Assembly (NCBI GenBank): GCA_022495995.1 | Contig: JAFEMH010001476.1 | Location: 248,001 to 312,000 of the forward strand | DNA length: 64,000 nt | Reading direction: 5' to 3' | Source: Adenophora triphylla var. japonica | Lineage: Eukaryota; Streptophyta; Magnoliopsida; Asterales; Campanulaceae | The notes under the pieces: model-generated | Told to the model about the DNA's origin: nothing | Database searches by the model: none | What the model saw: only the letters and a program-made list of their open reading frames with translations | Position numbers and translations under genes: made by a program | Shown here: positions 8,106-63,478 of the stretch, piece after piece | Layout of the letters: each line of letters starts with the position of its first letter | How positions within the stretch are numbered: position 1 is the first letter of the stretch

Positions 8106-9938
8106 TTAGGGCAAAAGGAGTTTCTCCTGTAGCGTTCGACGAGACGTTACGTAGCCCCAGAGTGCCAAGTGCAGCTTTTCAGGCCAATCACGACCACGGG
8201 TGGCCATTTTCCGGATGATCCGTTCGAGCGTCTTGTTAGCAGCTTCCATGGCTCCGTTAGTCTGAGGTCTGTACGGGGATGACTTATGGCGAGTGATTCT
8301 GAACTCTGATAGTAACCTATCGCAGTCTCCTTCAAAGTGCGACCCATTATCGGAAATGATCTCGTTGGGCACCCCATATCTGCACATTATGTTTTCTTTG
8401 ATGAATTGGGCCACTTTTCTGGAAGTGAGGACCTTGTAGGACTTGGCCTCTACCCACTTGGTGAAGTAGTCGATGGCTACTAGCACAAATTCATGCCCAT
8501 TGCTTCCTGTCGGGGCTATTTTCCCTATCACATCAATACCCCAGGTTGCAAACGGCCAAGGAGTCGTCATGCAGTACAGGTCATGAGGCGGGAGATGGTT
8601 GAGGTTGGCAAACCGCTGGCACTTGTCGCATGCTCGGACGTGCTGGACACAGTCTGTTTCCATGGAAATCCAGTAGTAACCCATTCTGAGGATGACTTGC
8701 ATCAGGGCTCTGGCATTCATATGAGGACCGCGGGGACCATTGTGGACTTCGGTCATCAACTCTTTAGCCTTTTCTTGAGTGACGCATAAGAGGAGTGGTC
8801 CTTGGTACCGCTTTTTGTACAGGTTGCCTCCTAGAATGACATAATGGGAGGCCAACCTTTTCAAGGCTTGCAAGCTCTTGGCTCTGACACCTTCTTTTGG
8901 TCTACCTTCTTTGTCTTTGAAAGCTGACTCTCCATCCTTGAGGAACTGGTAAATTTGATTGTACCACGATTCCTTGATAGGCTCGGGTCCCAGGTCTACT
9001 TCACAACAGAAAGCTGGGGCTTCTCTTCTACCCACTCGGAAGGGTTTTATGGCTTTTCCCTCAGGGATCTCTACCAGTGAGGCTAGAGTAGCTAGGGCAT
9101 CTGCGAATCTGTTCTTTTCCCTTAGCAAGTAGTCGAAGGTCACTTCTCTGAACTGTCCAGTCAACTCCTCCATATGGGCATGATACCGCTGAATATTAGG
9201 GTCCACAGTCTTCCATTTGTTGGAAACCTGGTTGATGATCAGGGCTGAGTCTCTGTAAACTTCAAGCTCATTGACATTCCTTTCTAAGGCAGCCGCCAAA
9301 CCAGCAATGCAAGCTGCGTACTCGGCGACATTGTTCGTGGCAGGGAAGTTCAACTTGAGGGCTATGGGTATATGCTCATCTTTCGGATAGACCAGTAGCA
9401 TCCCTACGCCATTTCCTCTTTTATTAGCAGCTCCGTCAAAGAATAACTGCCACCGGTTCTTGGGCTCAACCATGAAGATTCCTTCATCTGGGAATTGGGG
9501 TTCAGGCCCACGGTCCTCATTACTGGGAAAATTTGCCAGGTGGTCTGACAACGCTTGACCCTTGATGGCCTTTCTGGTTACATAGTTGATGTCGTACTCT
9601 GCCAAGAAGAAGGACCACTTTTCCAGACGCATCGAGAAGGAAGGCTTATCAAAGATGTACTTGATGGGGTCCATTTTTGAGACCAAATTCACAGGGTGGG
9701 CTTGCATATAATGCTTCAACTTGCCGACTACCTGCACCGATCCTGCACGAGTCTTTTCACATCTTGAGTAATTGAGCTCACTTCCTGCAGGCTTCCGCCG
9801 ACAAAGTAAATGGCATTCTCTACCCGAGAGTCTTTCTTCTCCTGAGCAAGCATAGCCCCAACCGCCGTATCGGTGACAGTGAGATAGAGCGAGAAGAGGT
9901 TTCTGTCTATGTGGGGGCATAGCAGGAGGATGTACCAA
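8106..9938 (-). pseudogene. Tat pol: RNase H linker, archaeal-type RNase H, integrase (element A)
   Basis: A 610-codon minus-strand frame. About residues 75-130 hold the degenerate first RNase H/connection (LEKWSFFLAEYDINYVTRKA). Residues about 165-290 are the extra RNase H typical of the Tat lineage, with FDGAANKRGNGVG, a TNNVAEYAA acidic residue, YRDSALI and the end motif FADALATLASL. Then comes integrase: zinc-finger cysteines ACDKCQ, DDE residues in GIDVIG, ISDNGSHF and PQTNGAMEAANK. The N-terminus (to about residue 70) is out of frame and its sequence is unreliable. YRDS replaces the YGDS seen in element B. The 3' frame also shifts near 8110. Product would act in the virus-like particle and at integration. 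The pol is dead here by frameshifts. Confidence 0.85.
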
Positions 9939-9982
9939 GTATGCCTTAATCGGTCAAAGGCATCCTGGCATTCTTCGGTCCA

Positions 9983-17662: not shown

Positions 17663-17671
17663 TATTTATAG
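17663..17671 (-). promoter_or_regulatory. TATA box of element A LTR
   Basis: CTATAAATA on the minus strand, 33 bp from the start of the nearer CCGYACGG palindrome. Confidence 0.7.
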
Positions 17672-17694: not shown

Positions 17695-17735
17695 GCCGTG
17701 CGGCTGGAGGTCCTTGGCTAATGCAGCCGTGCGGC
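17695..17735 (-). promoter_or_regulatory. Paired GCCGTGCGGC motifs, A LTR
   Basis: Two identical 10-mers GCCGTGCGGC at 17695-17704 and 17726-17735, exactly 31 bp apart, directly upstream of TATA in the sense of the LTR. The same spacing is kept in the solo LTR, in the D LTR, and upstream of the antisense gene of element G. Confidence 0.65.
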
Positions 17736-17975
17736 ATTATCCTCAGTGACTCAAAGATGTTTCTAGAATCATGCAAGGTGGCAAATTCTAGAACATTTCC
17801 TAATTAAGAAAAACGTGTTTCTTAATTAGGAAGCTTCCCCTTCAGCCCTTAATTGTTTTGGAACAGTTCCGGAATATTTCCGGAACACTAGGAAGGTCCG
17901 GGGAATTACCGGGAAACTTATCGAAATTGTCGGAAAATTTAACCGGAAGGCATGAGCCAGATTTGGGTACTTACA

Positions 17976-19198
17976 GTAGGGTCCAGAGTCGTTAGGGTTA
18001 AGAGTCATGTGAGTCAGGAGTCTTCGAATTCCAGTCCTCCGAGTCATCTGAAGGCCTCACGCCTGAAGATTATGAATATGTAGCCAATGTCATCTTTCCT
18101 TTCGCTTTGAATGAAATGATAGATCTTTCTGAGTATCCCCTTATTGCCAACTTAACAAATGATAAATTAACTAATAACTTAACAACAGTTAATAATGAAT
18201 CATTTGAAAAAGATGCAAACACACTAAACGAACAATACATTAAAGAAATCTTTAAGCAGGTTACATACAAAGAGGAAAACCGGGCCCAAGCTGCCAAGGA
18301 GGTTTTGACAAGTGTTAACTTGGGTACTGTCGAGGAACCTAAAGAGACACAGATTGGAAACTTCTTCCAGGGGGTTGAACGGGACAGACTAGTCAATCTG
18401 CTCAGAGATTACATGGACGTGTTTGCATGGTCATACAGGTATATGCAGGGGCTAGATAGTTCGATTGTGGAGCACAGAATCCCTCTAGCACCAGATGCCA
18501 AGCCAGTAAAGCAGAAACTGAGAAAAATCAAGCCAGAGTGGTCTCTACAGGTCAAAGAAGAGATTGAGAAGCTACTGCAGGTAGGATTCATCAGGGTCAT
18601 CGAATATCCGACATGGTTATCCAACATCGTGACTGTGACTAAGGTCAATGGGAAGGTGCGCTGTTGTGTGGACTTCCAGGATCTGAACAAAGCCAGCCCC
18701 AAAGACGACTACCCCTTGCCGAACATAGACATTCTGGTGGATGCCACTGCTAACTACGAAGTCAAATCCTTCGTTGACGGCTTTGCTGGCTACAACCAGA
18801 TCAAGATGGCCAAGGAGGACCAAGAAAAGACAGCCTTCATCATACTGTGGGGAACGTACTGCTATACTGTGATGCCTTTTGGGCTTAAGAATGTCGGGGC
18901 TACGTATCAAAGGGCAGCGACTGCACTCTTTCACGACATGATCCACAAAGAAATTGAGGTCTATGTTGATGACATGATAATCCATTCCAGAGGTACGGAT
19001 GGACAGCACTTTGTCGACCTGCGAAAGTTCTTTGAAAGGTTGAGACAGCATTCCATGAGACTGAACCCTACTAAATTCACCTTTGGGGTGACAAGGGGAA
19101 AAGTGCTCGGGTACATGGTCACAGAACGAGGCATTGAAGTCGATCCTCGAAAGATCAAGGCCATTATGGACATGAGGCTGCCTCGAACCCAGACATAG
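17976..19198 (+). pseudogene. Tat PR-RT linker and reverse transcriptase, element B
   Basis: Element B resumes here in mid-pol, right of the A insertion. The frame from 18107 includes the linker (EYPLIANLTNDKLTNNL, VNLGTVEEPKETQIGNFF, MDVFAWSYRYM, HRIPLAPDAKPVKQK), then RT with VDFQDLNKASPKDDYPLP, DGFAGYNQIKMAKEDQEKTAF, MPFGLKNVGATYQRA and the catalytic YVDDMIIHS. It ends at a TAG (19196) just before the connection domain. All catalytic Asp residues are kept. It is close to the A copy, in opposite orientation. Confidence 0.9.
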
Positions 19199-22153: not shown

Positions 22154-23668
22154 CTATCGCCTGTCATTCACTGAGTCTTCCTTGTTCTTCTTCCCTTTAC
22201 CTCGACCCCGTCGAGTGTTTTTCCTCTTCTTGTCAATGATGTTGGTCTCCCTCATCCCAATCTCAGGTATCCTCACTGGAGCCTCCACCAAGCCTGTGTC
22301 AATAAGTGCCTTCTCTACCCTGGCACGAGCTCGTATCTCCTCCCTCTGAGCCTCAGTAAGGGGAGCGACTTCCGATAGCCTCTCATATCGGGCCTCCATA
22401 TCCTTAATAAGGTCACCCGACCGATTATGGTGACTCGCCTTGGCTTCGCCTCCCTTAAAATCCCTGCTCGAGTCGCAGCCGCCCCAAATAAAGCCCGACG
22501 TCTCTCCTGCAATGACCCGAGTCGCTCCCATCTCCCTCTCATACCCAGTCCCCTAAGTAGGCCGTGGTCAAGATGGTACTCTTCCCGCTCTTCGAGAATG
22601 GCCCCGGGTGGTAAAGCAGTATATGTCCAAGCCCTTGATAAGAATAAGAAGCTAGCTGGATCCCTCATATCCAAAGGCACCACCTCTCTGGTACGGATGT
22701 CCTCCCAATCACCCAATGGCTCCTGTAATGTCCCGAACCGGCCGGATGCTGCAGGGTATGTAGAATGATGACCAACGTAAGCCCGGAACCCTCACTATGT
22801 AGGACTCCCAAATGTCCTCCGGGCTCCGCAACCTCCAATGAGGCACCCACCAGCCGAATATCCGATATGGATAACCTAGCCATCATCAGCTCCTCAGCCT
22901 ACCCCGGTCTTCGTTGCCTAGCGCACCCCTCTCGGGAAATCACCCAAGGGCATTGAGAAGGTGAAGCCCCTGGCAAAGCCCCAAGCCTCTCCTGCAGCTA
23001 CAAAGTCAGCACCGCCGGGCTCCCAGACCTCATGAAATGGTCTCCCTTAGCCATCCTATCAATGCCATGCAGGGTCTCACCCAAAACCAGTGGGATAATA
23101 TCCTTCCCAGCCCTACAATCCCTGACCATATCCAAAAGGCCACCGTGACAAGACTCTACCTACTGGACTCGGCAGTGAACAGAAATGAGAACACGCAGAG
23201 GATAAATGCATCCATAGCCAATGTGGTCGCAGCCGTATCCGGAGACCCAAACCTGCCCGGGATATCAGAAAGGTCAATCCTGTCAGGGGCTACCATCATC
23301 CCCTCGGCCTCTTCCAGAGAGATTCGCAGAAAAGATGCCATCTTTACCGTCACCGGCACATCTCCAGTTAGAGGAATCGAAACGACCTCAATTTTTGGAC
23401 CCCCAATCAATGCCCGGAAGTCTTTGAAGGTTGGGACGAGTTCATTTTAAGAAAAGCAGTAAACATGTCTCCGAACGTCCCAAAACCTCGTTGCGGCTCT
23501 CAAAAGGTCCCAATCGGGCGGGAGATCCTTCAAATGACATAAAGATTTGATCTTGAAGGTGGTATCGAACTGCCCCTTGTTAGATTGAAAGTTGTGTCTC
23601 ATCCAAGATTGAAAATCGGACAGAAAATGGTCTCTTTTCCCCTTTTGCAATCTGATTGGTTTCTCCAT
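22154..23668 (-). pseudogene. DUF7745-like antisense gene in element B
   Basis: The minus-strand gene is antisense to pol of B. The likely start is the ATG at 23668 (MEKPIRLQKGKRDHFLSDFQ). The N-terminal part includes ATRFWDVRRHVYCFS, followed after a stop by IGGPKIEVVSIPLTGDVPVTV, ISLEEAEGM and AMDAFILCVFSFLFT. That pattern is reminiscent of the plant DUF7745 family. After more frame breaks it continues with EDIRTREVVPLDMRD, SHHNRSGDLIKDMEARYERLSEVAPLTE, VRIPEIGM and a basic RRGRGKGKK end, stop at 22154. The 3' half is also present in A (6528-7205). Several stops and at least one frameshift make this copy non-functional. The domain label is tentative; the homology between A and B is clear. 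Confidence 0.55.
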
Positions 23669-24190
23669 TGACAGTAATCAAAGTTGATGATTTTTGGTCA
23701 AAAATGTGCTCTGGGATCAGTTGGGACAAGTCTAGGGTGAAAATGAAATGAAAAGGCCATCCCTTGATTTTATTTCAAAAAAACCAGTTCAGACAAGACT
23801 TCCAGCCGCACGGCTGCATTTGCCAGACAGCCTGGACGGCGTCTTTTGCCTTCTGCGGAAAAAAATCTGCGGCTCTAGCCGCTGCCCAAGTGGAGTTCTC
23901 ACCCCACTTTCTCAATAAAACTTGCATAAAAACCTTCCTAAACACCATTCATGCAATCACATATCATCACAAATCATTTTGGACCAATTTCCGCCCCATT
24001 TTCAAGCAAAAAAGCTGCCCCGAGGCTCAAGTAATATGCAAAAACATAAAGCATAGATAAGAAAAGCAAATGAAGGATTAATACATTATTTTTGCCCCAT
24101 TGGCGCCCAAATAAAACGAAAAATAAACAAATTGTGCATAAAAGTGTTCATTGTTTGTTTCTCTCCTCTCCTAAGTCAACCTAAGGAATC
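23669..24190. other. Interval between the two antisense genes of element B
   Basis: Non-coding, about 520 bp. It contains one GCCGCACGGC motif (23805-23814) followed by TGCATTTGCCAGAC, as in the LTR promoters, about 140 bp upstream of the DUF7745-like start. I see no second copy at 31 bp. Confidence 0.45.
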
Positions 24191-26783
24191 CTAAGCTTCC
24201 AACTCCTCGTCGTCACTGCTTAGTTCGTAGAACTCTCGATCCTTCATCAAATCTTCAGCATCACTCACGTCAGATAGATTGACATTCACATGCTCATACT
24301 CCGCCAGCTGCTCCAGAATGCCCGTGTTGGGTCTATGTCCCCGAGGCATGGCGCTAGAAGAATACTCCGAGGCTGACGAGGTAAAGGCTGTGCTCCCAAC
24401 GTGCCTCCTCTTGTGCACGGGCTCCTGCACATTTGCCTCAGCCCTGGAAGCGCAGGCCAACTTCCTCAGAAGGGACCGGCACACATCCTTCCAACCCCTG
24501 TTCTGCCATACCAAGCCATCATAAGTACGAGCAGGGACCTGCGAGAAGAGGAAAAGAAAAGCTTAGAAAATTTCAGAAATTCTCAAAATTGTAGAAAGCA
24601 AAGAAAGTTGAAAAGGGAAGGACCCTAGAGATACTTATAGTGCTATCAGCAGGCAGAGTATACTGGGGCTCCCTCGTGTCAGGAATAGGCACCATGAACC
24701 TCCTCGGTACCCCATTCACCACGTAGGAGAGATGAGCAGGAGGCATGGGCGGATCAGTCGGCTCAGCTTCCCCGTACCCCTGAACGGCAGCTATCTTCAC
24801 TAGCTTCTGCGGCATCCTCAACCGCTGCTCCACGAAGGTGGTGTACGGTGTAGCAAAGTCAAAATATTCCTCGGCTGCCACACCAGCCCGATACCTCTCT
24901 ATCTCATTCGCTGACCAGTTTATGTGTTGTAGCATGAGCTGAGGAGGGTCATGAGGAGTGATAGCGTCCAAAGGAGGGACGTGGCCATGCTGCCTGGAAA
25001 AGCGGTCCCCCAGATAGATGATATCACAGGTCAGCCCTGTCAGCCACCTCCTCTGCCTGGTCACAACCAAGGCATCCCCTAGCAAAGCCTCCGGGTACCT
25101 CCCCCAAGGATAAAAATCCACTCCCTCATGACCATCCCTGTTGATAACCGGTCTCACCATCTTGTAATCAAAAGTAATCCGGGTCTTCCCGGTGAACTTA
25201 TCTCTAGCCTCTCCCCTCCAGCGAATCATAGCCGGGAAGATCTCTGGATCACTCTGTTGGTTCCAAGGAAAGAACCCAATCACCTCACAAAACCAGACCT
25301 GCATGTTCAAAACAAAAAGGTCATTTTCTCTCATAAAAGTCTCAAGAAATAAAAGTAAAAGAGAGAAAAGAAAGTGAGACTACCTCAAGTGCAAAAGAGA
25401 AGAATCAGCCTTGTTCCGGCTGTACATATCCAAGGAGAAATAAAGCTCCACCAATCCGGCCTCACCCCAAGAGATCGCCCCAACCTCATCCAGGTTCTCC
25501 AAAGAGTCAAGCAGGCATAAGCATTGCCAATGTCCCAGAAGTTTGCAAAAATGGTGACCGACAAGCATCAACCACGTAAAAGCTCTCGCAAGCTGGTGGG
25601 CAGTCACCTCGTTGGCGGCAAACCCCTGCATGAACCCCAGGATTGCCACCTCCACATTCCTTGTCTCCATCCCAAGTCCCTTAGGACGGAGGTCAAACCC
25701 AACCAGATCCCTGAACTCAGCCGCAGTAATGTGATCTCTCCAGGTCACAGGCCTCCTAGTGAACTGCAAGCCTGATAGCAAAGAAATCGCCGAGTCACCA
25801 TAATCTCCCCCAGTAAGATGAAAGTTGTGGGTGGTGTCCCACCGTAACTCGAGAGGGCCTGGACTAGCCCCTTACTCTTAGAGGTCACGTGAATACCTCT
25901 ACCAATAGCATCAATAAAGAATCAAGCCCGGTAGCCATTACCGCCACTTGGGATTCACCCCATTCTTCTCAAAGTTGGGCATTCTGTCCCATAGCTTCAC
26001 CGCAACCTCAGAAGGTCCCCTCGACTTGTTCTCCTGTAGTAAAGCACAACAAAAAATGTGTTAGTCCTTCATCTCATCTCAAAAATATGCATATATTCAA
26101 AAGTGCACATATTTTCAAAGATAAGCATTCATAAGATATTTCTAGCATCCTTAGCCTAGAAAACGTGTCTTTCATCACTTGAAACACGTCATGTCGAGCA
26201 CATTGCTCTCTCAAGCACAAAAGTTCAATTTTCAACATTCTTTGCACGTAAGCATTAATTCTTTCAAAATTGCATGCATGAATCCTTTTCATCGTCCACA
26301 ATCTTATTTTACCATCCATTATCGTAAATTGACCTAGTTCTAGCACATGCAAGAACTCCGTCACATTTTAGACATCATTTTTCTTACTTTATTTTTAAAA
26401 AATGGGTCATTCTCATTATTTTTCAAATAAATCACACATGCATGTTCATTTATCTCCTTAGCCTCATAGGTTAATCATTAAGATTCCAAAATTATCAAAA
26501 ATAAATCTTAGGAAAATTCGAAAAATTCCTAAAATTTGGGTCAAGCCCTAAATCAATCAAAATTCTATCAAAAATTGATAAAATCAAGCAAATCAAGAAT
26601 GCTTACCCCAACAGATTGAGGTTTAGTAGATTTGTGTTCTCCCCTACCGGGATAAAGCTCCGATGGAGGCGTGTTGAAGTCATGCTTCCTCTCCGTACGA
26701 ACGAGCTCCCTCCTCCTCCTCCTAGCGGCTTCGGATATGTTCCTCCGTGCTTGCCTAGGCATCGGGTTCCCTTCCGAATCCAT
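24191..26783 (-). pseudogene. Plant-mobile-domain (PMD) antisense gene with four exons, element B
   Basis: Four minus-strand exons: 26783-26607 (MDSEGNPMPRQARRN, Arg-rich), about 26034-25384, 25298-24635 and 24538-24191. Splice sites fit GT/AG: donors GTAAGC, GTAGTC and GTATCT, acceptors CTACAG, ATGCAG and CTCGCAG. Exon 2 holds the aminotransferase-like plant mobile domain: WDTTHNFHL, TRRPVTWRDHITAAEFRDLVGF, HQLARAFTWLMLVGH and ISWGEAGLVELYFSLDMYS. Exon 3 is an intact 220-codon frame (VWFCEVIGFFPW, YPWGRYPEALLGDALVVTRQ). Exon 4 ends in an acidic tail. Intron positions match the copy in element G. Exon 2 has internal stops near 25900. The PMD family includes the host proteins MAIN and MAIL1 and many transposon-borne copies. 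Its role inside a retrotransposon is unknown. Confidence 0.75.
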
Positions 26784-27140
26784 CTTAGGTGAAGAAAGTA
26801 AGAGAATTGAAGGAATTCAAATTTTTTTCTCTCTCCTCTCTTTCTCTTCCTCGGCAGAACAAAACAGCAATGCTGTTTGCACGTTTCAAATTCAGTTTAA
26901 ATAATCTGGTGAAATTAAACTCCAAGTCGTACGGCTTCTTTTGCCCTCATCTCATGCCGGGCGGCCTCATTTGCTCTGAGCAGAAATTACATCTTTGTCC
27001 CTGAACTTTCCACTTAGGAATATAACTCCCGTTACTTCTCAACCAGATTAACGCTGTTTCCCAAAGGATATCCATTATCTCCAAATGCAAATAAGCTTTC
27101 CTCCCGAGTCGCCTCCGTTACTTCCGTTATGACGGAATAA
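26784..27140. other. Upstream region of the element B PMD gene
   Basis: About 360 bp without a gene. It has a CT-rich stretch just before the ATG and the paired motif at 26926-26965. The rest shows nothing that I recognise. Confidence 0.5.
26926..26965 (-). promoter_or_regulatory. Paired CCGYACGG-type motifs upstream of element B PMD gene
   Basis: GTCGTACGGC at 26926-26935 and GCCGGGCGGC at 26956-26965, 30 bp apart, 140-180 bp upstream of the PMD start. It matches the arrangement in the LTR promoters with some divergence. Confidence 0.5.
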
Positions 27141-28951: not shown

Positions 28952-28992
28952 CCGCACGGCCTCATTAGTCCTGGGGTTACAGTCGCACGGCT
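28952..28992 (+). promoter_or_regulatory. Paired CCGCACGG motifs, solo LTR
   Basis: CCGCACGGCC at 28952 and TCGCACGGCT at 28983, 31 bp apart. The second is about 32 bp from the TATA box. Confidence 0.65.
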
Positions 28993-29014: not shown

Positions 29015-29023
29015 CTATAAATA
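29015..29023 (+). promoter_or_regulatory. TATA box of solo LTR
   Basis: CTATAAATA within TGCCTATAAATAGAGGCC, matching A and D. Confidence 0.7.
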
Positions 29024-30899: not shown

Positions 30900-32103
30900 G
30901 TGTTCGCTGCGTTTTCATTCGTAGAGTCGCCATGTTGTTTTGATTTAGCCCAAAACATTGAGAAAAGGCATCAGTTTAAAAAACTATTGTTGTGTGATGA
31001 GATTTTGAGTTCCGAGGTCAGGTTACTCCTCGGGAAGGGCATAGTAAATGCGCACCCGAGTCGCCTCGTAAAAACGAGTCTTTCGGTACCCCTTCTTTCT
31101 TTAAAAGTTTTATGTGTGTGTGTGTGTGCTTTTAAAATTGCATGTTGTATCTGATGTCTACATTGTACACTACGTATTGAAATGTATTAAAATAGTAATG
31201 GAAGGAAGCCTTACCAATGTTGGTTCATTTCTGTCTTCCGCAGGGGAATAATGTTTGAGGGTTAAATAGTGTTCCGGGATGGATCGGGATTACTTCGGAA
31301 TGTGCCGGTGTCCATGACAGAGTTTCGCGTATTTTTGGATTGTCAGGTGTGTACTCGGGCAGAGTTTCATCGTGTGTTGGGATCGTTGGTTGCACTCGGG
31401 CAGAGTTCCGGCGTGCGTTGGAATCGCGGTTGTGCTCTGACAGAAGTTTCGACGTGCGTCGAAATCGTCGATCGAGCCTCTGAAAGGGCCGGACACCTCG
31501 GGATGGCTTGGCGGTGGCTTCGGGATGGATTGGGAAGGCTTCGGAATGCCTCAGGAGTGCCTCGGGGCAGCTCGGGAGCGTCTCGGGAGCGCTCGATAGG
31601 GCTCGACAGAGCTTCAGAGTACCACGAGGGGCCTCGGAATGCTCCGAAGGGAACCGAAAGGGATCGGGATTGCCCCGAAGGGTCTTAAAGAGGTGTCTGA
31701 AGGCTGAGGGGAGAGAGGAGAAAAGGATTGTGTGTGAAAAATGAGAGGGGGAAGCCTCTATTTATAGGGTCCAGATTCTGGCTAGTTGTGTCGCACGACA
31801 CTGTCAGCCATTACCAGTTTTTTGGTTTTCCTGGATTTAAGGGAATATTGTGGACTTTAAGGGGATTTTGTAATTATGATGTCTGGATGCAAAGTGGTCC
31901 GCATGGACAGCCATTGCTTTTCCAAAATTTTCAAAATTCCCAAAACGTCCTTTTGTACTTTTTTATCCCAGAATGGCCCCCCTTGGTTTGGTTGGTGGTT
32001 TTTGGGGTTTTTGAAGGCTACGAATGTTCGAGATCACGTTTGTGTGAGTCTGTGGTGTTTCCCGTGCATTTGGAAAGGAGTGATCCAGATTGGGATACTT
32101 ACA
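30900..32103 (-). mobile_element. 3' LTR of element G, truncated at its far end
   Basis: Minus-strand LTR starting TGTAAGTATCCCAATCTGG (32103). It keeps the GAGTCGCCATG and CTCGTAAAAACGAGTC blocks and the (GT)n run seen in the C LTR, but lacks the last part. TATA is at 31759-31767. Three imperfect 50-bp repeats with ACTCGGGCAGAGTT lie at 31340-31470, and a GGAT/CTCGGG-rich stretch at 31500-31690. A single GTCGCACGAC motif is at 31790-31799. Confidence 0.7.
31759..31767 (-). promoter_or_regulatory. TATA box of element G LTR
   Basis: CTATAAATA on the minus strand in GACCCTATAAATAGAGGC context. Confidence 0.6.
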
Positions 32104-32189: not shown

Positions 32190-33375
32190 TGTGACCATGT
32201 AGGTTGGCTGTGAGGACATGGTGGTGTCCTACTGTGGGACCATTTAGGTCGATTGTGAGGACATGGTGGTGTCCCATTGTGTGACCGCTAAGGTCTGTTG
32301 TGAAGACATGGTAGTGTCCTGCTGTGTGACCGTTTAGGCCGGGCCTGGTCAGACCCTTTGATAGGATTCCTACGTATCCCTAGCGAGAATCAAGCCTGAT
32401 CGTAGTTCGGAGGAGATCGTGTAATCGTGAGTGTATGCGGGCGTGGTGGTGCCCTTAGATGAGGTGACCGCCGAGGTCGGTTGCGAGGGCATGGTGGTGC
32501 CCTACGATGATGGGAGGGCATGGTGGTGCCCTAAGGATATGGTGAGGGCATGGTGGTGCCCTAAGGATATGGTGACCGCCGAGGTCGGTTGCGAGGGCAT
32601 GGTGGCGTCCTAAGGATATGATGACCGCCGAGGTCGATTGCGAGGACATGGTGGTGTCCCAAGGATATGACGACCACCGAGGTCGGTTGCGAGGACATGG
32701 TCCCAAGGATATGATGACCGCCGAGGTCGGTTTCGAGGACATGGTGGTGTCCCAAGGATATGACGACCGACGAGGTCGATTGTGAGGACATGGTGGTGTC
32801 GTAAGGATATGACGACCGCCGAGTTCAGTTGCGAGGACATGGTGGTGTCCCAAGGATATGACGACCGTCGAGGTCGGTTGCGTGGACATGGTGGTGTCCC
32901 AAGGATATGACGACCGACGAGGCCTCGGCTATGCGAGACATGGTGGTGTCCCAAGGATATGACGACCGCCGAGGTCGGTTGCGAGGACATGGTGGTGCCC
33001 CAAGGATATAACGACCGCCGAGGTCGGTTGCGAGGACATGGTGGTGTCCCAAGGATATGACAATCACCGAGGTCGGTTGCGAGGACATGGTGGTGTCCTA
33101 AGGATATGATGACCGCCGAGGTCGGTTGCGAGGACATGGTGGTGTCCCAAGGATATGATGACTGCCAAGGTCGGTTGCGAGGACATGGTGGTGTCCCAAG
33201 GATATGATAACCGCCAAGGTCGATTGCGAGGACATGGTGGTGTCCTAAGGATATGACGACCGCCGAGGTCGGTTGCGAGGACATGGTGGTGTCCTAAGGA
33301 TATGACGACCGCCGAGGTCGGTTGCGAGGACATGGTGGTGTCCCATGGATAATGGGAGGGCATGGTGGTGCCCTA
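32190..33375. repeat. 49-bp minisatellite in the 3' region of element G
   Basis: More than 20 units of about 49 bp with the core GAGGACATGGTGGTGTCC then AAGGATATGACGACC, GCCGAGGTCGGTTGC. Each unit contains two short inverted repeats, GGACA-TGGTGG-TGTCC and CGACC-GCCGA-GGTCG. Because 49 is not a multiple of three, long minus-strand frames (32610-33284) arise with a 49-residue period. They are not genes. Confidence 0.85.
32365..32408 (-). other. CTACG/CGTAG hairpin motif, copy d
   Basis: Minus-strand GAACTACGATCAGGC...ATACGTAGG. It interrupts the first, more diverged part of the minisatellite. The inner stem is short with wobbles. Confidence 0.6.
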
Positions 33376-33404
33376 TGGATGGTCGTTTTGACCTTTGTCT
33401 GCTG

Positions 33405-33775
33405 GGGAAGGAGTTCGGGCTTACTTTGATGGCCAGGGTTTGTTTCGTGTTTTATGTTTTGGAGGCGTTTTGTGCCTTGGGATTTGTGTTTGGGGGAGTT
33501 TGCGCCTTTTGTGTTTGTTTTACCGTTTAGTGGGCGATGTTCGGGCTTACGATGACGGCCGGTGTTAATTTTACCGTTTAGTGGGTGAGATTCGGGCTTA
33601 CGATGACGGCCGGGGTTTGTTTCGTGTTTTATGTTTTGGAGGCATTTTGTGCCTTGGGATTTGTGTTTGTTTTACCGTTTAATGGGCGATGTTCGGGCTT
33701 ACGATGACGGCCGGTTCTAATTTTATCGTTTAGTGGGTGAGATTCGGGCATACGATGACGGCCGGGGTTTGTTTG
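33405..33775. repeat. GT-rich imperfect tandem repeats, element G
   Basis: About three units sharing TTCGGGCTTACGATGACGGC and TTTACCGTTTAGTGGGCGA, plus a TTATGTTTTGGAGGC block. They lie between the minisatellite and the promoter region of the antisense PMD gene. Confidence 0.65.
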
Positions 33776-33884
33776 GTTGGGTTAAGGACCAAACTGCATT
33801 GAATTTGCTGAAAAAGGCCTTTGGACAGCCAGGGGCAAAGATTATAAGGGCAAAAGGGTAATCTCGTCAGGAGATACAAAGTGG

Positions 33885-33925
33885 TCCGCACGGATACCAC
33901 TTCTTTGCAAAGTGGTCCGCACGGA
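33885..33925 (+). promoter_or_regulatory. Paired TCCGCACGGA motifs upstream of element G PMD gene
   Basis: Two identical palindrome-like 10-mers TCCGCACGGA at 33885 and 33916, 31 bp apart, inside a longer direct repeat (AAAGTGGTCCGCACGGAT). They lie 163-203 bp upstream of the PMD ATG. No obvious TATA box follows. Confidence 0.6.
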
Positions 33926-34087
33926 TGGGCTGTGAAGATTGATTTTCTAGAAATCAAAAATTAGTTTTCCAGAAACGAACAACAACTTCATTTTCTCCTT
34001 CTGTTCGAACGAGAGAGAGAGAAAAAATTTGGTTTTTGGCCAAAAATTTCTTAAGGAAACTCTTCCTAGTTGCTTGAATTGCTTGTA

Positions 34088-36619
34088 ATGGCGAAAAGAG
34101 CTAGACGTGGTCGTCGTCAGAGGAGCCAAGAGGCTATTGAGAGGAGGTTGGACCTTCAAAGGAATTGCACTTCCTTTGTTCCATCGTCGAGGAATCCGGA
34201 TGTGTTGTATCCGGATCCAGAGGTGCACAACTTGCGGGGGAGGATCGTAAGGGAGGTAAGAGATCAATTTTTGCTTCGATTCTTGCTTGAATTGTTGTAA
34301 ACTAGAACTAGGTTTTAGTTTTTGCATATTTGGGGCTTTTGTTGTTGCCATGATCAATTTGTGAAATTGATGTTGATTTGTTGAAATTGAATGTGCAAGA
34401 ATTGTGGGTATGTGATTTTTGTGCAAAAATGAGGAGATTAGCTCTTATTTGTAAAAATAAAGTGCCTCTCTCTGAAATGCATGCTTCGGTGATTTGTACC
34501 TTAGGCTATTTCCGTATGTACATTGTGAAAAAAAAATGCCGTGTAGGGACGGACTTTGTGTGAAAAGTGTGACGTGTGCCGTGTTTTGTGACAGACTCTG
34601 TGGGAAATTTATGTGCAATGTGTGCCGTATTTTTGTGACGGGTTTTTTTGAAAATGTGTCGTGTAGGGACGGATCCCACTTTTGAGAAAATTGCATAGTG
34701 CGTGCCGTATTTTTGTGACGGGTTCTTGAAAATGTGTCGTGTAGTGCGTGCCGTGTTTTTGTGACGGACTATGTGGGGAAAGTTATGTGCAATGTGCGCC
34801 GTGTTTTTGTGATGGGTTCTTTATGTTTTGCCGTGTTGGGACGGACATTTTATGTTTTGCCGTGTTGGGACGGACTTTTTATGTTTTGCCGTGTTGGGAC
34901 GGACTTTTGTGTTTTCGTTTCTTTTTGTATATTTGCATTAAGTACTGTTATTGACGTACCTTTGCTGTGTTTACCTGCAGGATGAGGTGCCTTCATTTGG
35001 AAAGGCAAAGAAGATGAAGTCTCGGGGGTCGCTCGAGGCCGTAGTTGAGCTGTGGCAGCATCTGCCGGAGATCTCCAGGTAGACCGAGTCCTAAGAGACT
35101 GGTCTTTAATTCCGGTTTAGGCGATTTTGTTGAGAACCTTGCCGGGATAGCGGAGACGCAGAAGAACAAGGGCATCTTCTTTGCTTTGTCTGAGTATTGG
35201 TGGGACACCACACATACCTTCCATCTTAGTTGGGGAGAGGTGACGGTGACTCCTACCGATTTTGCGGCGATTACTGGGCTTTCCTTCAAAGGAGAGCCAG
35301 TGAGATGGCGGGACAGGATGTCTGATGGGACGCTGGCGGAGCTGCTGGGCTTTGCGCCCTTCCCTCGTAAGGGCCTGGGTATGCTGTATAGCGATGTAGA
35401 GGCGCAGATCACGGCCAACATCGGGGCTTATCGCCGGGGCACCGGATTGGTGATGGCTGAGTAGCTGGCGCGCTCCTTTCAGTGGTTTGCTCTTTCCGAG
35501 ACTCTGTTCTCGAATCATGCCTCCTCCGCTCTTTTTCCTCTGCTGAAGAGTTTGGTGGACTTGGGGAGGGTTGGTGAGATTGCTTGGGGCGAGGCGGGCT
35601 TGGCCGAGCTCTACTTCTCCATGGACCGATTTAGCCGAGGCGTGGCCAGTTCTCTAGGATGCTTAGATTTTACACTGGAGGTATGAGTTTATAGCTGTTT
35701 GTGGTTTAGCAATTTATGTTTCTCCGTCTTCTTTTTTCTTTTGTTCTAAGCACTATCCGCTTTTTTTTGCAGGTGTGGTGCTATGAGATCTTCCGATGTC
35801 AGCCGTGAGATCGGGAGGCTGAGGCCATGGTGGCCTATCCTGCTATGCTGGGCTGGGCACGTCCTTTGAGGAGGAGGAGGACGATTAGGGGGAAGCTTAC
35901 TGTTGCATATCGGGATGTGCAGGAGTTCCTGGAGAGAGATAGTCCGACGGGGTTTGAGCTGTACCCCTGGGCTCGATATGGCGATGACGAGCTCGAGGGC
36001 GGTCCTGCGCTGACACGGCAGAGGAAGATACTGCGGGGCCTGACTTGGAATGTTATGTATTTGGGGGAGAGGGTCTTCTGGCAGCATGGCCCAGGCGAGC
36101 CCCCTGTGGCTCCGAGGGATCCTCCCTTCGGGATGATGCATCCTCGTGACATGGATGTGCTGGAGTACGATAGGTACTTGGAGGGCGTGAGCGCCGAGGA
36201 GTTCATCCTGTATGGCGAGGAGTACGGGGCCTTCGTCAGGCGGAAGTTGAGGACGCCGCAGGTGTTGGCGAGGGAGAGGCAGGATTGCCCACCACGTCCC
36301 CCAGATGTTCCGGTGCCTGGGACGGACTTCACATATGTCCGCGGGGATTCGTCGAGGAGGAGGGTGTCGGTGTCCATCCCAGAGCAAGCTCCTGCTGCTT
36401 ATCGGGTTGACTCGGATGCTCCGATGAGTGTGCTTACTCTTTTCCATCTTGGCATATTTTTTGCATTTTTCTCTTTTTGTCGAGTATGATTGCTTTTCTT
36501 TAGCTGAGCGTTTCTTTGGTTGTTTGCTTGCGCAGGTCTCGGGGAGATCCTTTGATACGTTGACCCGCCGGTTTGTGGGGATACGATCTTTTGCGAAGAA
36601 GCTTGCAGGTCTTCGCGGC
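34088..36619 (+). pseudogene. Plant-mobile-domain antisense gene, element G, truncated by element D
   Basis: Four plus-strand exons: 34088-34255 (MAKRARRGRRQRSQEAIERR, basic), 34981-35680, 35773-36427 and 36536-36619. Acceptors TTACCTGCAG, TTTTTTGCAG and TTGCGCAG and donors GTAAGA, GTATGA and GTGTGC frame them. Exon 2 has the mobile-domain core: EYWWDTTHTFHLSWGEVTVT, FAAITGLSF, RKGLGMLYSDVEAQI and IAWGEAGLAELYFSMDRFS. Breaks: a frameshift with TAG near 35089, TAG at 35462 and TGA at 35806. The LTR of D begins at 36620 and removes the rest of exon 4. Exon layout matches the element B copy. Intron 1 (34256-34980) carries its own short tandem repeats. A functional role cannot be claimed for this copy. 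Confidence 0.75.
34540..34915. repeat. Short tandem repeats in intron 1 of the element G PMD gene
   Basis: Imperfect repeats with the core GTGCCGTGTTTTTGTGACGG, ending in three near-identical 31-bp units around TTTTGCCGTGTTGGGACGGA (34826-34910). The same CCGT...ACGG arms recur in every unit and could pair. Confidence 0.65.
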
Positions 36620-36838
36620 TGTAAGTACCCAAATCTGGCTCATGCCTTCCGGTTAAGTTTCCCGGCAATTCCCCGGACTTTCCTAAAGTTCAGGGGCAAT
36701 TCGGGAACTTTTCCGAACCTTCCGAGGGGCGAAGGACTTACTAGGAATTAAAATTCCACGTATTCCTTCGGTGAAAATGCCCTTCTAGAAGGCCACCTTG
36801 CATGATTCTAGATATGTGCTGAGTCATAAGGGATAATG

Positions 36839-36879
36839 TCGCACGGCTGCATTAGGCAAGAACTCCAAGCCGCACGGCT
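36839..36879 (+). promoter_or_regulatory. Paired CCGCACGG motifs, D LTR
   Basis: TCGCACGGCT at 36839 and CCGCACGGCT at 36870, 31 bp apart. The TATA box begins about 32 bp after the start of the second. Confidence 0.65.
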
Positions 36880-36901
36880 TCATAAGCTTTTGCCAGACTG
36901 C

Positions 36902-36910
36902 CTATAAATA
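36902..36910 (+). promoter_or_regulatory. TATA box of D LTR
   Basis: CTATAAATA in TGCCTATAAATAGAGACC. Confidence 0.75.
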
Positions 36911-44066: not shown

Positions 44067-44507
44067 TGACCCAACCCACCCAACAATTCACTGATGGACA
44101 CAGTCTTACCATTTCAAAACACACACATAGAAGTCAGACCAGATCTGATCAGATAGCTTGGCAAGGTGGGTTACTGAACAAATCTACTGGAAAAGATGAC
44201 GAGAGCCAAGGATCTATGGCAGTCAGAGTTCAGATTTGCTCGTGTTCGGGGACAGATTGGACCAGAGAAGAAGATGAAGGTATAAGTGGCACGTCGGTGC
44301 AAGGAAGGGTGACGAAGGTGCAGATCTACCATCAAATGTCGGAGATAGGTTTGAAGCGCCGCTCGGAGTTCAGATCTGCAACTTCGGCCAGTGAAAATGT
44401 AGAGAGAATGTTAGGTAATCGGAAAGGAGGAGGGAGGAGCGCGTCTGATCGCGAGATCTAAAGAGGGACGATGGCAAGGAGATAGATGGGTGACGATTGT
44501 CGGAGAT
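44067..44507. other. Unrecognised sequence before the GGT/AGT array
   Basis: Holds a 131-codon plus-strand frame (44066-44461) with no domain I recognise; it begins inside the MITE end, so I do not call it a gene. The GC content rises towards the array. Confidence 0.3.
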
Positions 44508-45569
44508 GGTGTGGTGGTAGTGGTGGTAGTAGTAGTAGTAGTGGTGGTAGTAGTAGTAGTAGTGGTAGTAGTAGTGGTAGTAGTGGTAGTAGTGGTAGTA
44601 GTAGTGGTAGTAGTAGTGGTAGTCGTAGTGGTAGTGGTAGTAGTGGTGGTAGTAGTGGTGGTAGTAGTGGTGGTAGTAGTGGTGGTAGTAGTGGTGGTAG
44701 TAGTGGTGGTAGTAGTGGTGGTAGTAGTGGTAGTGGTCGTAGTAGTGGTCGTAGTAGTAGTAGTGGTAGTGGTAGTAGTAGTAGTCGTAGTAGTAGTAGT
44801 CGTAGTAGTAGTAGTCGTAGTAGTAGTAGTCGTAGTAGTAGTAGTAGTAATAGTCGTAGTAGTAGTCGTGGTAGTAGTCGTGGTAGTAGTAGTAGTGGTA
44901 GTAGTGGTAGTGGTAGTAGTGGTAGTGGTAGTAGTGGTAGTGGTAGTAGTGGTAGTGGTAGTAGTGGTAGTGGTAGTAGTGGTAGTGGTAGTAGTATTAG
45001 TGGTAGTAGTGGTAGTGGTAGTAGTGGTAGTGGTAGTAGTGGTAGTGGTAGTAGTGGTAGTGGTAGTAGTGGTAGTGGTAGTAGTGGTAGTGGTAGTAGT
45101 GGTAGTGGTAGTAGTAGTGGTAGTAGTAGTGGTCGTAGTAGTAGTGGTGGTAGTGGTGGTGGTGGTAGTGGTGGTGGTAGTAGTAGTGGTGGTGGTAGTA
45201 GTAGTGGTGGTGGTGGTAGTAGTAGTGGTGGTAGTCGTAGTAGTAGTGGTGGTAGTCGTAGTAGTGGTGGTAGTAGAAGTAGTAGTGGTGGTAGTAGTCG
45301 TAGTAGTGGTGGTAGTAGTCGTAGTAGTAGTGGTGGTAGTAGTCGTGGTAGTAGTGATGGTAGTAGTCGTGGTAGTAGTGGTGGTAGTAGTGGTGGTAGT
45401 AGTGGTGGTAGTAGTGGTGGTAGTAGTAGTAGTAGTGGTGGTAGTATTGGTAGTAGTGGTAGTAGTATTGGTAGTAGTGGTAGTAGTAGTAGTAGTAGTA
45501 GTGGTAGTAGTGGTAGTAGTAGTAGTAGTAGTGGTAGTAGTAGTGGTAGTAGTGGTAGTAGTAGTGGTA
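44508..45569. repeat. GGT/AGT trinucleotide array of about 1.06 kb
   Basis: An almost uninterrupted run of GGT and AGT triplets with scattered CGT. A higher-order TAGTGGTAGTGGTAG unit dominates 44890-45115, and GGT-rich parts lie at 45140-45240. The triplet register never slips over about 355 triplets, so open frames (poly Ser/Gly, poly Val, poly Tyr/His) run through on both strands. The right edge touches a CACTA terminus. Confidence 0.9.
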
Positions 45570-46559
45570 CACTACAAAAAAAGTGATTATTAGGGACTAC
45601 CTTATTTGGGTCGCCCGGCTGGGACCGACCCTATTACTTTCTTAATAGGATGGCTAATTAGTTAAGTCGGTCAATTTAATTGTTGGGACCGTTGTTTTTT
45701 TTTTTAAACCCAAAACATAATAGGCTAAAAGGAAAATAATAATTAAAAAGCAAAAACAAAAAAAAACCTACCTAATTGACGCCGACGCCCATGCCAACCT
45801 TTACTCTGCGCACACTTCCCCTTTACTCCCTCTCTCAATCCCTAAACTCATCATCGTTCGATTAGCGGCTGCAAACCCTATCAATTCATCGTTCGATTTC
45901 TTCAGCCGCCGTTCGATTTCTTCAGCCGTTCGATTTCTTCATCGATACAACCATATATTCAATGTAAGTTGGGGTTTAATTAGGGTTCATGTTTTTTGCT
46001 ATTCTACATAGCCCTGTATTTGTGTTGCTTGATTTTTGAAAGCTTGATTATCGCAACTGAATTTCTTTCATACTTGCTACGGTTGAAATATGGTAGTAGT
46101 TCTAAATTTATGATGATGATGTATTTGGACCAGCGATGTGAAGTAAGTCACTAGTTAAATTATCTGTTTGAACTCAATGAAACTTACTTTTAATTACTTT
46201 TGTGGGCGATCTGCTGTAGTAAGTTTGAACTCAATGAAACAACCACCTCGTTCGATTTCTCATCCCGTCTCTATTAATTACATTGAATTGAAAATAATTT
46301 TTACTTTTTTATGAATCATGGCAATTTATGTTGAATTGACAAAGTCAACACAAGATTATTCATTACTGTGAGGTTGTGTTCCAGTGCTTTTAATAGCTTT
46401 CTGCTCCAAATGGCTTTAATTTTCTCACAAGTGGATTCAATGATTTTGATTCTCAGTAAAATTAGTTAGATAATCATGAGTCATATGCACTTATAGTAGA
46501 ATACAAGGTTGATCAGTACTATGTCGGCTCCAACAATTCAATTCAGGTGTGTGTTTTCC
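45570..46559 (+). mobile_element. Terminal part of a CACTA element, truncated
   Basis: Begins CACTACAAAAAAAGTGATTA at the edge of the triplet array. Subterminal sequence repeats GGGACCGACC-like motifs. A CT-rich leader-like region follows (45830-45960; CGTTCGATTTCTTCAGCCG repeated), then ATGTAAGTTGGGGTTTAATT, which looks like a 5' splice site. No transposase frame is present before the truncated LTR of H cuts in at 46560. Confidence 0.55.
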
Positions 46560-56512: not shown

Positions 56513-56594
56513 CAGCGTACGCTGGTGCCGGTGGGCGCACGCCGGAAGCTTTGATTGAGTACGGGCGTACACCTAGTTAAAGTGGGCGCGCGCC
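56513..56594. promoter_or_regulatory. Four CG palindromes in U3 of element I, 5' LTR
   Basis: CAGCGTACGCTG (56513), GGCGCACGCC (56534), GGCGTACACC (56564) and GGCGCGCGCC (56585). Members of each pair start 20-21 bp apart. Confidence 0.55.
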
Positions 56595-56757
56595 GTATGT
56601 ACGGACGAGATGCGGCCCAGTTTCCTTATTTTGAAAGGATTCTAAAGATTTTCCACAGATTTGCACAGAATCAGCCACGGATTTCGGGAGATTTTCTATT
56701 TTGACTAGGATTTTGACCCTAATTTGTTTCCAAAAAGGATTTTCACCTCCCTCCTCC

Positions 56758-61778: not shown

Positions 61779-63478
61779 TGATGGATGTGGTTTTACCCAT
61801 CCAAAAGATATATTTTCTAGCTTATTTGGTGCTCGAAACCTTGAGAATTTAATGTATTTTCTAGTGTTTTGAAAGTACAGGGGTTGAAGTGCAATTATTG
61901 AGAAAATGGAGGATTGGAGCGTACTTTGGAAGCTTTTGGATCAAATTGCAATTTTGGAAAATTTGGGACTAAACGGAAATTACGAAGTTCAAGGACCAAA
62001 GTGGAAATATTGGAAATTAAGGGACTAAATTGGAAATATGGAATTTTTGGACAAATTTGATATATAAAAATTCGTGGGATTAAATGAAAAATAAAATCCT
62101 AAAGAGCAAAGTGCAAAAGAAGTCATTATAGTGGCCAAAGTGCGACTGCAAAATAGCGGGACGAAACGGATTATAAATGGTACTAAAAATCACACCAAGG
62201 CATGATTGCTGGCCGAGGGAAATGCTTAGCAGGTGGCCGGCCGAATCTGGGCTGCTTGGGGCCAAGGGTGAAAGATTTATGGGCCAAAGGAGGAAATGGT
62301 TGCTGGGCAAAGAAAGAAGCTGGAAATTTAAGACAGGCGTACGCCTGGTGCCAGTGGGCGCACGCCCGGAAGCTTTCAGATTGAGTACAGGCGTACACCT
62401 AGTTAAAGTGGGCGCGCGCCCGGTATGTACGGACAGATGCAGCCAGTTTCCTTATTTTGAAAGGATTCTAAAGATTTTCCACAGATTTGCACAGAATCAG
62501 CCACGGATTTCGGGAGATTTTCTATTTTGACTAGGATTTTGACCCTAATTTGTTTCCAAAAAGGATTTTCACCTCCCTCCTCCTATATAAACAACCCTAG
62601 ACTAGTTTTGTATCATCTTTTATCCTTTTTCTTTTATTTTTGGGATCTTTAAATCTTTTGTTCTTTTATTCTCTTTTTATATTTTTAGTTTAGGTTTTAT
62701 TTATTTATGAAGATGAAAGAACAAGGTTTTGCTTTATTTATTTTTATGGCCATTCAAGGCTAATTTATTTTATTCATGGATTGAGGTGAGTAACAATTTG
62801 ATCTTTATGCGAAGGTTTTAATTCTTTCTATTTCTTTTTCGTTCTTGTTCTTCTCAACGGTTTTAATTATTGTCTTGAGATCAATTGTATTGACCTTGCG
62901 GAATATACTTTTGACCTCTTGAATTTATTTGGGTATAAATTATTGCACTTGCGTGGATGATTTATAATTTGACCATTGTCGAGAAGAATAGATTCAATTG
63001 AGGACCTTGCGGAAATCAAACGAATCTAGGTTCCATTGTTCTTAAGTTTTTAATGGAATTCTTGAATGTTTATATTGACCTTGCGGAAAATATGAACAAG
63101 ATAGAGTTATTAGGGTTTTAATGTTCTTATTGACCTTGCGGAATATATTAACATCTTAACCCTAGGTTTTTGTGAACGAACCCAAGAATGAGATTGAATC
63201 CTTTTCAGATGAAATAAAAAGCATAAACTGATAATTGTTATGATCCCCAATCCATGAATCCCTTGTCTCTTGATATCTTTAATTCATTTATTTTGCTTTC
63301 TTACTTTTAATCATAAAATCAAAAAACCCTTTTCCCTTTTGTTTCGTTTACACTAATTAAATCAACTTGTTAATTCACACGAGTCTCTGTGGTTCGACCC
63401 TTACTTTTGTATATTGCTACTTCGGTAACTTGTACACTTGCAAGGTATTTTTATTACACAGTGAAATTTTCTCCATCA
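61779..63478 (+). mobile_element. 3' LTR of element I
   Basis: 1700 bp, TGATGG...CCATCA, followed by the target duplication ACATG (63479-63483), which matches 55952-55956. TATATAAA at 62584-62591. Four CG palindromes at 62334-62421. Confidence 0.95.
62334..62421. promoter_or_regulatory. Four CG palindromes in U3 of element I, 3' LTR
   Basis: CAGGCGTACGCCTG (62334-62347, perfect), GGCGCACGCC (62357), GGCGTACACC (62390) and GGGCGCGCGCCC (62410-62421, perfect). Cores begin 21 bp apart within each pair. Confidence 0.6.

Follow-up and report, generated by a model that had tools for sequence, protein, structure and literature searches.

Short element-specific motifs that are repeated in the non-coding parts of a transposon and differ between related families are known from the VANDAL elements of Arabidopsis, whose VANC proteins have been demonstrated to bind them and evolve together with them (PMC5735166). 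Antisense genes lie between pol and the 3′ long terminal repeat (LTR) of Retand and Grande, with a promoter of their own in maize Grande; for such antisense open reading frames (ORFs) of plant LTR retrotransposons the function is called unknown and a regulatory or transcriptional role is offered as a hypothesis (PMC11963269, PMC7264820). Plant mobile domain (PMD) sequences are already known within Gypsy elements (PMC5418596), and host PMD proteins have roles in silencing and in the transcription of motif-bearing genes: Arabidopsis MAIN, MAIL1 and PP7L are needed to transcribe genes with the DOWN promoter motif, which the MAIN/MAIL1 complex or a partner has been proposed to recognise (PMC7156037). 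Here we analyse a 64,000-nt stretch of the Adenophora triphylla var. japonica genome (assembly GCA_022495995.1, contig JAFEMH010001476.1, positions 248,001 to 312,000, forward strand; the window) together with related copies elsewhere in the genome. Its LTR retrotransposons, among them elements A, B, D and G, carry short palindromes such as CCGYACGG in front of the LTR TATA box and upstream of two antisense genes of the PMD and DUF7745 types.

The arrangement resembles VANC/VANDAL in its repeated, family-specific motifs but differs in that the carriers are LTR retrotransposons, the palindromes stand at a fixed distance from TATA and PMD and DUF7745 are the candidate binders; by analogy, VANC shows a precedent for such a system in DNA transposons. 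As in Retand and Grande, the antisense genes lie between pol and the 3′ LTR, whereas the published passages on those elements name TRP28 and other domains and mention no site common to LTR and antisense promoters, and the elements here have PMD and DUF7745 and such a site. Retand is marked by an antisense ORF with TRP28 (PF04195); the pieces scanned here, covering some of the ORFs of each element, gave PMD and DUF7745. MAIN, MAIL1 and PP7L concern host genes and not a transposon, and the likeness drawn here is one of role. A literature search over titles and the beginnings of abstracts returned no description of palindromes shared by LTR and antisense promoters, and a search by motif letters listed papers whose titles appear unrelated.

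Tnt1, a copia element of tobacco, reportedly has short U3 boxes that are palindromic and tandemly repeated; it is not known to have antisense genes sharing these boxes, and its superfamily differs from that of the elements here. Tandem short U3 repeats in an arrangement like that of BII in Tnt1 are present in the LTRs we sampled, with a putative enhancer role.

Palindrome pairs in the window

The original prediction placed pairs of near-palindromic sites exactly 31 bp apart in the A LTR, in the 28732 LTR (called the solo LTR there), in the D LTR and before the PMD gene of element G, with a diverged pair 30 bp apart before the PMD gene of element B. All four 31-bp pairs are present within one base of those coordinates, and the B pair lies at 26927/26957. 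A TATA box had been noted some 31–33 bp past the pair in the LTRs, and in each of the three TATAAATA begins 33 bp from where the second 8-mer starts. Two modules had been overlooked. One, at 23806, is the promoter of a third antisense gene, with a decayed second site that stands 26 bp off following a 5-bp deletion; the other is a palindrome of the G LTR (31801-31788) whose 8-base core begins 32 bp before TATA. The sites are as follows.

17727..17734, minus strand: A LTR, distal site CCGCACGG
17696..17703, minus strand: A LTR, TATA-proximal site CCGCACGG, 31 bp from the distal site
17663..17670, minus strand: A LTR, TATAAATA, 33 bp past the second site
28952..28959, plus strand: 28732 LTR, distal site CCGCACGG
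28983..28990, plus strand: 28732 LTR, proximal site TCGCACGG, 31 bp from the distal site
29016..29023, plus strand: 28732 LTR, TATAAATA, 33 bp past the second site
36839..36846, plus strand: D LTR, distal site TCGCACGG
36870..36877, plus strand: D LTR, proximal site CCGCACGG
36903..36910, plus strand: D LTR, TATAAATA, 33 bp past the second site
31899..31906, minus strand: G LTR, degenerate G-type site CCATGCGG then ACCACTTTGC, 140 bp before TATA (read from the sequence)
31788..31801, minus strand: G LTR, proximal palindrome GTGTCGTGCGACAC with different arms, core 32 bp before TATA
31759..31766, minus strand: G LTR, TATAAATA
33886..33893, plus strand: antisense PMD promoter of G, distal site
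33917..33924, plus strand: antisense PMD promoter of G, second site, 31 bp from the distal site
26927..26934, plus strand: antisense PMD promoter of B, gene-proximal site TCGTACGG
26957..26964, plus strand: antisense PMD promoter of B, site CCGGGCGG with altered centre, 30 bp from TCGTACGG
26896..26903, minus strand: PMD promoter of B, TATTTAAA, 31 bp past the proximal site
23806..23813, plus strand: promoter of the second antisense gene (DUF7745 type), intact site CCGCACGG
23832..23839, plus strand: DUF7745-type promoter, decayed partner CTGGACGG, 26 bp from the intact site

Four YCGYACGG pairs no more than 66 bp apart occur in the window, all of them at 31 bp, and none occurs in 300 first-order Markov sequences. 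Chance origin of the pairs is ruled out by these shuffles and by the reversed-pattern controls given below.

Spacing, position and conservation across the genome

Throughout the 2.48-Gb genome, CCGYACGG-N20-24-CCGYACGG (sites 28–32 bp apart) matches 21,751 times forward and 21,888 times in reverse, against 10 and 12 matches of the reversed pattern; since a G-type pair looks identical on either strand, the forward and reverse totals are partly the same pairs. Widening the gap to 5–35 gives 22,361 forward matches, and the extra 610 are no more than background, since the reversed control yields 804. Gaps of 36–66 account for 233 and 253 pairs (control, 72 and 91), so that N20-24 pairs make up 96% of all pairs with gaps of 5–66. 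Among the matches listed, which come from the first contigs, 70 distinct places have spacings of 31 bp (50 places), 30 bp (18) or 22 bp (2), both 22-bp places belonging to another repeat. Pairs in A-type PMD promoters are 29–30 bp apart. The 31-bp interval put forward as an exact rule therefore does not hold: it is 29–31 bp in two subfamilies and 84–85 bp in the LTRs of a third. Simple local tandem duplication was considered as an origin of the pairs and rejected; alone it leaves the similar spacing across three promoters and two subfamilies unexplained.

We read 20 stretches of 6 kb, each taken at a listed pair, and a further 20 that mostly adjoin them. Pairs were found in three places: in the LTR, before the antisense PMD gene and before DUF7745, a second antisense gene. 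Two stretches (L026 and L027) have the LTR pair with neither gene in the stretch. Many genomic copies thus support the proposal that one module serves both LTR and antisense gene, and the second antisense gene shares this module. A viral_contigs scan with the LTR start gave no match.

Since the 21-row profile of A-type LTRs had mostly been selected on the 8-mers, and held one LTR twice (L007 = L033), a motif-free sample of 60 LTRs was drawn by their first 19 bases, as the first 60 of 100 listed matches (12,356 + 12,721 genome-wide). TATA was found in 51 and in the other nine was absent from the stretch. An exact CCGYACGG precedes TATA in 36 of the 51, at -33 (20 LTRs), -32 (9), -31 (6) or -34 (1), leaving 15 without. 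Because the distance from LTR start to TATA ranges from 265 to 470 bp in the sample, the interval between palindrome and TATA is preserved as the remainder drifts. Exact sites at both -62 to -65 and -31 to -34 occur in 19 sampled LTRs, and G-type LTRs have up to four sites, near -269, -169, -138 and -31/-32, all four being exact in 11 of the 60. The second site of A-type LTRs precedes TATA by 33 bp in 15 of 17 rows, and by 32 and 34 bp in the remaining two; these rows were picked by a pair plus a strong TATA, and two loci were entered twice, giving 13 of 15 distinct LTRs at 33 bp. With two incomplete rows left out, TATTTAAA stands 31 bp past the proximal site in eight of nine A-type PMD promoters and 30 bp past it in the ninth. 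The internal modules are in element-sense orientation and hence run opposite to the antisense genes they precede; such a module would need to work in either direction.

In A-type PMD promoters (n = 9, eight sampled plus that of B in the window) site identity is 0.978 against 0.812 in other columns, a value reached by 6 of 167 slides, and in a seven-row G-LTR stretch, whose middle pair had been selected on, it is 0.993 against 0.844 elsewhere, with 2 of 229 slides as good. All 10 A-type elements sampled by their DUF7745 promoter also have the PMD promoter pair, with at most one mismatch; the eight sampled rows above come from these. A DNA search with the A LTR, of which the best 40 candidates were scored, returned copies 96–100% alike, too close for a conservation test. 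Neither freely varying spacing nor motifs conserved no more than their neighbours, the two outcomes that would have spoken against the original prediction, was seen in these alignments, which examine them in part.

Most copies of the 8-mer lie within a larger unit, CCGYACGG-N5-TTWGC. TTWGC is at offset 13 in 31 of 38 A-type and 15 of 21 G-type LTR sites, in DUF7745 promoters at 20 of 21 sites for the A type and 5 of 10 for the G type, and in 7 of 8 G-type PMD sites; the tally, like that of the flanking base below, counts exact CCGNNCGG sites and omits decayed ones, with one LTR entered twice. The sites are palindromic, as had been proposed, but are not a palindrome alone, TTWGC being present at this offset in most sites of four of the six promoter sets. 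The palindrome centre varies (CA, TA or TG, and in A-type PMD promoters also GG, AG or CC).

Other strongly conserved U3 boxes of the A-type LTR (17730-17980, minus strand, and 20 distinct A-type LTRs) are TTCTAGAA, which occurs twice and is presumably heat-shock-element-like, GCCACCTTGCATG, TGAGTCA and GGATAA.

Subfamily versions and the antisense genes

The base 3′ of the palindrome is C in 76 of 77 A-type sites and A in 38 of 39 G-type sites, counted over LTR, PMD and DUF7745 promoters. Of the 15 LTRs without an exact CCGYACGG, three (L068, L096 and L121) have a decayed CCGYACGG, and several others have a different palindrome at the same position: TATGTCGTGCGACATA and decayed forms of it, GCCGGGCGGC pairs, TCCGCGCGGA pairs or ATGTCGGGCGACAC. 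Over all 15, the best arm matches average 3.60 of 5, where background is 2.67, and none of 131 slides reaches 3.60 (best, 3.47); the position thus stays the same, and changes in the arms tend to be symmetric.

If the arms within an element change in concert, an element of the TATGTCG class should repeat its own palindrome before its antisense PMD gene, and this was found in one element. In an TATGTCGTGCGACATA element, an interval of 2,691 bp ahead of the 3′ LTR holds an antisense PMD gene (E 3e-26), and the sole CG-cored palindrome with arms of at least 4 in that interval is the 16-mer TATGTCGTGCGACATA, upstream of the gene. Genome-wide, ATGTCGTGCGACAT matches 6,476 + 6,439 times (reversed control, 0 + 0). 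One TATGTCG element has LTR copies spaced 84–85 bp at either end, while its internal copies lie 2.2 and 5.2 kb away from the closest copy in the 3′ LTR. Further elements have LTR copies together with one or two internal ones; by match coordinates, internal spacings of 2.92–2.97 kb recur at three places among the ATGTCGTGCGACAT matches. Element-specific motifs are repeated in the element's own non-coding DNA in the subfamilies compared, window element G being mixed; the three subfamilies looked at seem each to repeat their own palindrome version before their antisense genes.

The antisense genes of the window are:

34088..36619, plus strand: PMD gene of G, which the D LTR cuts; candidate ATG at 34088, PF10536 in 35045-35683
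24573..26783, minus strand: PMD gene region of B, candidate ATG at 26783, PF10536 in 25383-25871 at 25.0 bits, below the cut-off
22318..23446, minus strand: second antisense gene, fragments resembling the open DUF7745 ORF of stretch L014

Against the PF10536 gathering score of 34.9 bits, one G exon passes at 52.2, and a second G exon (23.3) and the B exon (25.0) fall below. The window fragments of the second gene have no Pfam match by themselves. The ORF in L014 is open over 534 residues, matches DUF7745 (PF24924) at 32.2 bits (gathering score, 26) and has a tail rich in lysine and arginine; a protein search with it gave none of 7,998 scored candidates at E 0.001, and comparison with solved structures gave one weak match, to the basic tail. 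PMD and DUF7745 are weakly similar (E 4e-4 in a two-sequence comparison). The site is not a common property of all PMD genes: in the 1.8 kb before the PMD match, none of 16 other PMD genes, of host-like and other-transposon types, has CCGYACGG or CCGNNCGG. A separate transposon PMD group has a GAGCGATCGCTC-like palindrome upstream in three of six stretches (near 896 in L055, 1149 in L056 and 1006 in L057).

The antisense PMD and DUF7745 genes adjoin the LTR in A- and G-type elements, pol having been read in the window only. There, 8109-9953, given to element A by position only, encodes RT_RNaseH (53-120) and RVT_3 (172-290), then H2C2 and rve. A second, archaeal-type RNase H after the RNase H linked to reverse transcriptase (RT) and before the integrase is a mark of the Tat lineage (OTA) of Ty3/gypsy, and the carriers belong to a large, Tat-like Ty3/gypsy group.

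Several neighbouring features were noted. An antisense gag ORF (PF03732; 38782-40314, minus strand) directly follows the D LTR stretch, which suggests that D was inserted in an opposite-strand element, perhaps G. Arrays of 49–52-bp repeats lie directly upstream of the G PMD promoter (32201-33777), with similar arrays in several other G-type stretches, and a long low-complexity, trinucleotide-rich array with 87 overlapping copies occupies 44367-45600. Over the whole window, repeats not collapsed, 17 of 36 CGYRCG hexamers have complementary flanks (arms of at least 4), against 2 of 39 for CGRYCG. Single GTCGTACGGC-like palindromes at 15870 and 38770 (both minus strand) are in matching sequence about 2.1 kb past the A and D LTR starts. 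The LTRs of another element (62334-62421 and, more decayed, 56513-56604) have CG-cored palindromes GGCGTACGCC, GGGCGCACGCCC and GGGCGCGCGCCC about 150–250 bp before TATA, the same style in a different family, and TATCTCGCGCGAGATA-type palindromes about 20 bp apart occur at 1168-1205, 2108-2150 and 181-210, near a possible LTR start at 2334 (minus strand).

Candidate binders and alternative explanations

From the observed position, spacing, conservation, sharing between promoters and subfamily-specific arms of the sites, we infer a transcriptional role, dimer binding and the identity of the binder, with activation, repression and de-silencing as candidate effects. The explanation we favour, at a probability of roughly 0.6, is that the palindromes would be promoter sites in three promoters per element, read by an element-encoded dimer, with the arms changing together within a subfamily. 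The LTR promoter would share these sites with the promoters that the antisense PMD and DUF7745 genes each have of their own; in the LTR the TATA-proximal site sits at -31 to -34, with a second site about three DNA turns upstream in A-type LTRs. A symmetric dimer would probably occupy each palindrome, with the TTWGC box usually part of the unit. That dimer would be encoded by the element, most likely as PMD and/or DUF7745, and each subfamily's regulator would recognise its own LTR and its own genes, so that the arms of its sites change together. A promoter role is very likely, because the site is shared and its distance to TATA is fixed; a symmetric element-encoded dimer is favoured because the arms change symmetrically and together. 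A bolder form, which we hold tentatively and at somewhat less than even odds, is a private code in which each subfamily's antisense PMD and/or DUF7745 dimers bind the palindrome on their own LTR and regulator genes, a self-recognising feedback circuit that would acquire new codes as subfamilies diverge.

A number of observations weigh against the favoured explanation. The 60 LTRs include many relatives and many that form the two ends of a single element, which leaves fewer than 60 independent cases. The TATA-like boxes of several antisense promoters are poor: a weak ATAAATG at 30–31 bp in all five aligned G-type DUF7745 promoters (L024 left out), weak boxes at 37–41 bp in A-type DUF7745 promoters, and, among four G-type PMD promoters, weak boxes at 46–48 bp in three and a very weak one at 31 in that of the window. 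TTWGC is at offset 13 in only 3 of 18 A-type PMD sites. LTR sites of the TATGTCG subfamily are 84–85 bp apart and not 31, and 7 of the 15 LTRs without an exact site score only 2–3 of 5 arm matches. Co-variation rests on three arm classes, the only ones compared in more than one promoter, and hence on few independent switches. Window element G mixes versions, with GTGTCG..CGACAC before TATA and TCCG..CGGA before the PMD gene, and may be an intermediate or a counter-example. The structure model of the DUF7745 ORF has a mean pLDDT of 34, too low to assign a DNA-binding fold.

The original prediction envisaged a dimeric host factor acting on one face of the helix. A dimer would fit the palindromes; the spacing part is weakened by intervals of 29–31 bp and, in LTRs of another subfamily, 84–85 bp, and the host origin is not what we favour. 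A host dimeric transcription factor driving the LTR and the antisense genes, with the arm classes bound by different members of one host family, would account for a site position relative to TATA that is typical of an upstream activator; the A-type boxes TTCTAGAA, TGAGTCA and GGATAA look like host sites, and CGTACG and CGCACG are similar to several plant factor cores. Yet a single host specificity would tend to keep the arms constant, and several arm classes occur at one place; in each of the three promoters A-type sites have other flanking letters than G-type sites, and the third class repeats its own palindrome before the PMD gene. Since another palindrome takes this position in several LTRs and subfamilies repeat their own versions, we consider a host factor unlikely, and the pattern suggests a binder encoded by the element rather than by the host.

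It is very improbable that the modules are simply copies of one LTR segment at three places, kept alike by recombination and without current function. The element-sense orientation of the internal modules, as if copied from the LTR, and the flank partly shared within the TATGTCG class would fit such descent. Site columns, however, are 0.9–1.0 identical against 0.26–0.62 in the spacer (the 8-mers having partly been selected there), the TATA distance is held although LTR length varies, and CpG-rich sites in methylated repeats are expected to decay faster than their neighbours. Slimmer still is the chance that the palindromes are RNA hairpins in the element's genomic RNA, for example for packaging or escape from silencing: the internal sites are also within element-sense RNA, the arms co-vary symmetrically like RNA stems and TTATGTCGTGCGACATAA, read from the sequence, could form a 7-bp stem, but the stem of GCCGCACGGC would have only 3 bp, and a constant interval, measured to TATA in LTRs and to TATTTAAA in A-type PMD promoters, fits DNA.

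A shared site with subfamily-specific arms makes the purpose of the antisense genes directly testable, by asking whether a subfamily's own PMD or DUF7745 protein acts on its own palindrome. If it binds there, the system would be a retrotransposon counterpart of VANC and would suggest a molecular activity for plant mobile domain proteins. If the private code holds, the host silencing proteins MAIN and MAIL1 would belong to a family of DNA-sequence readers that retrotransposons also use.

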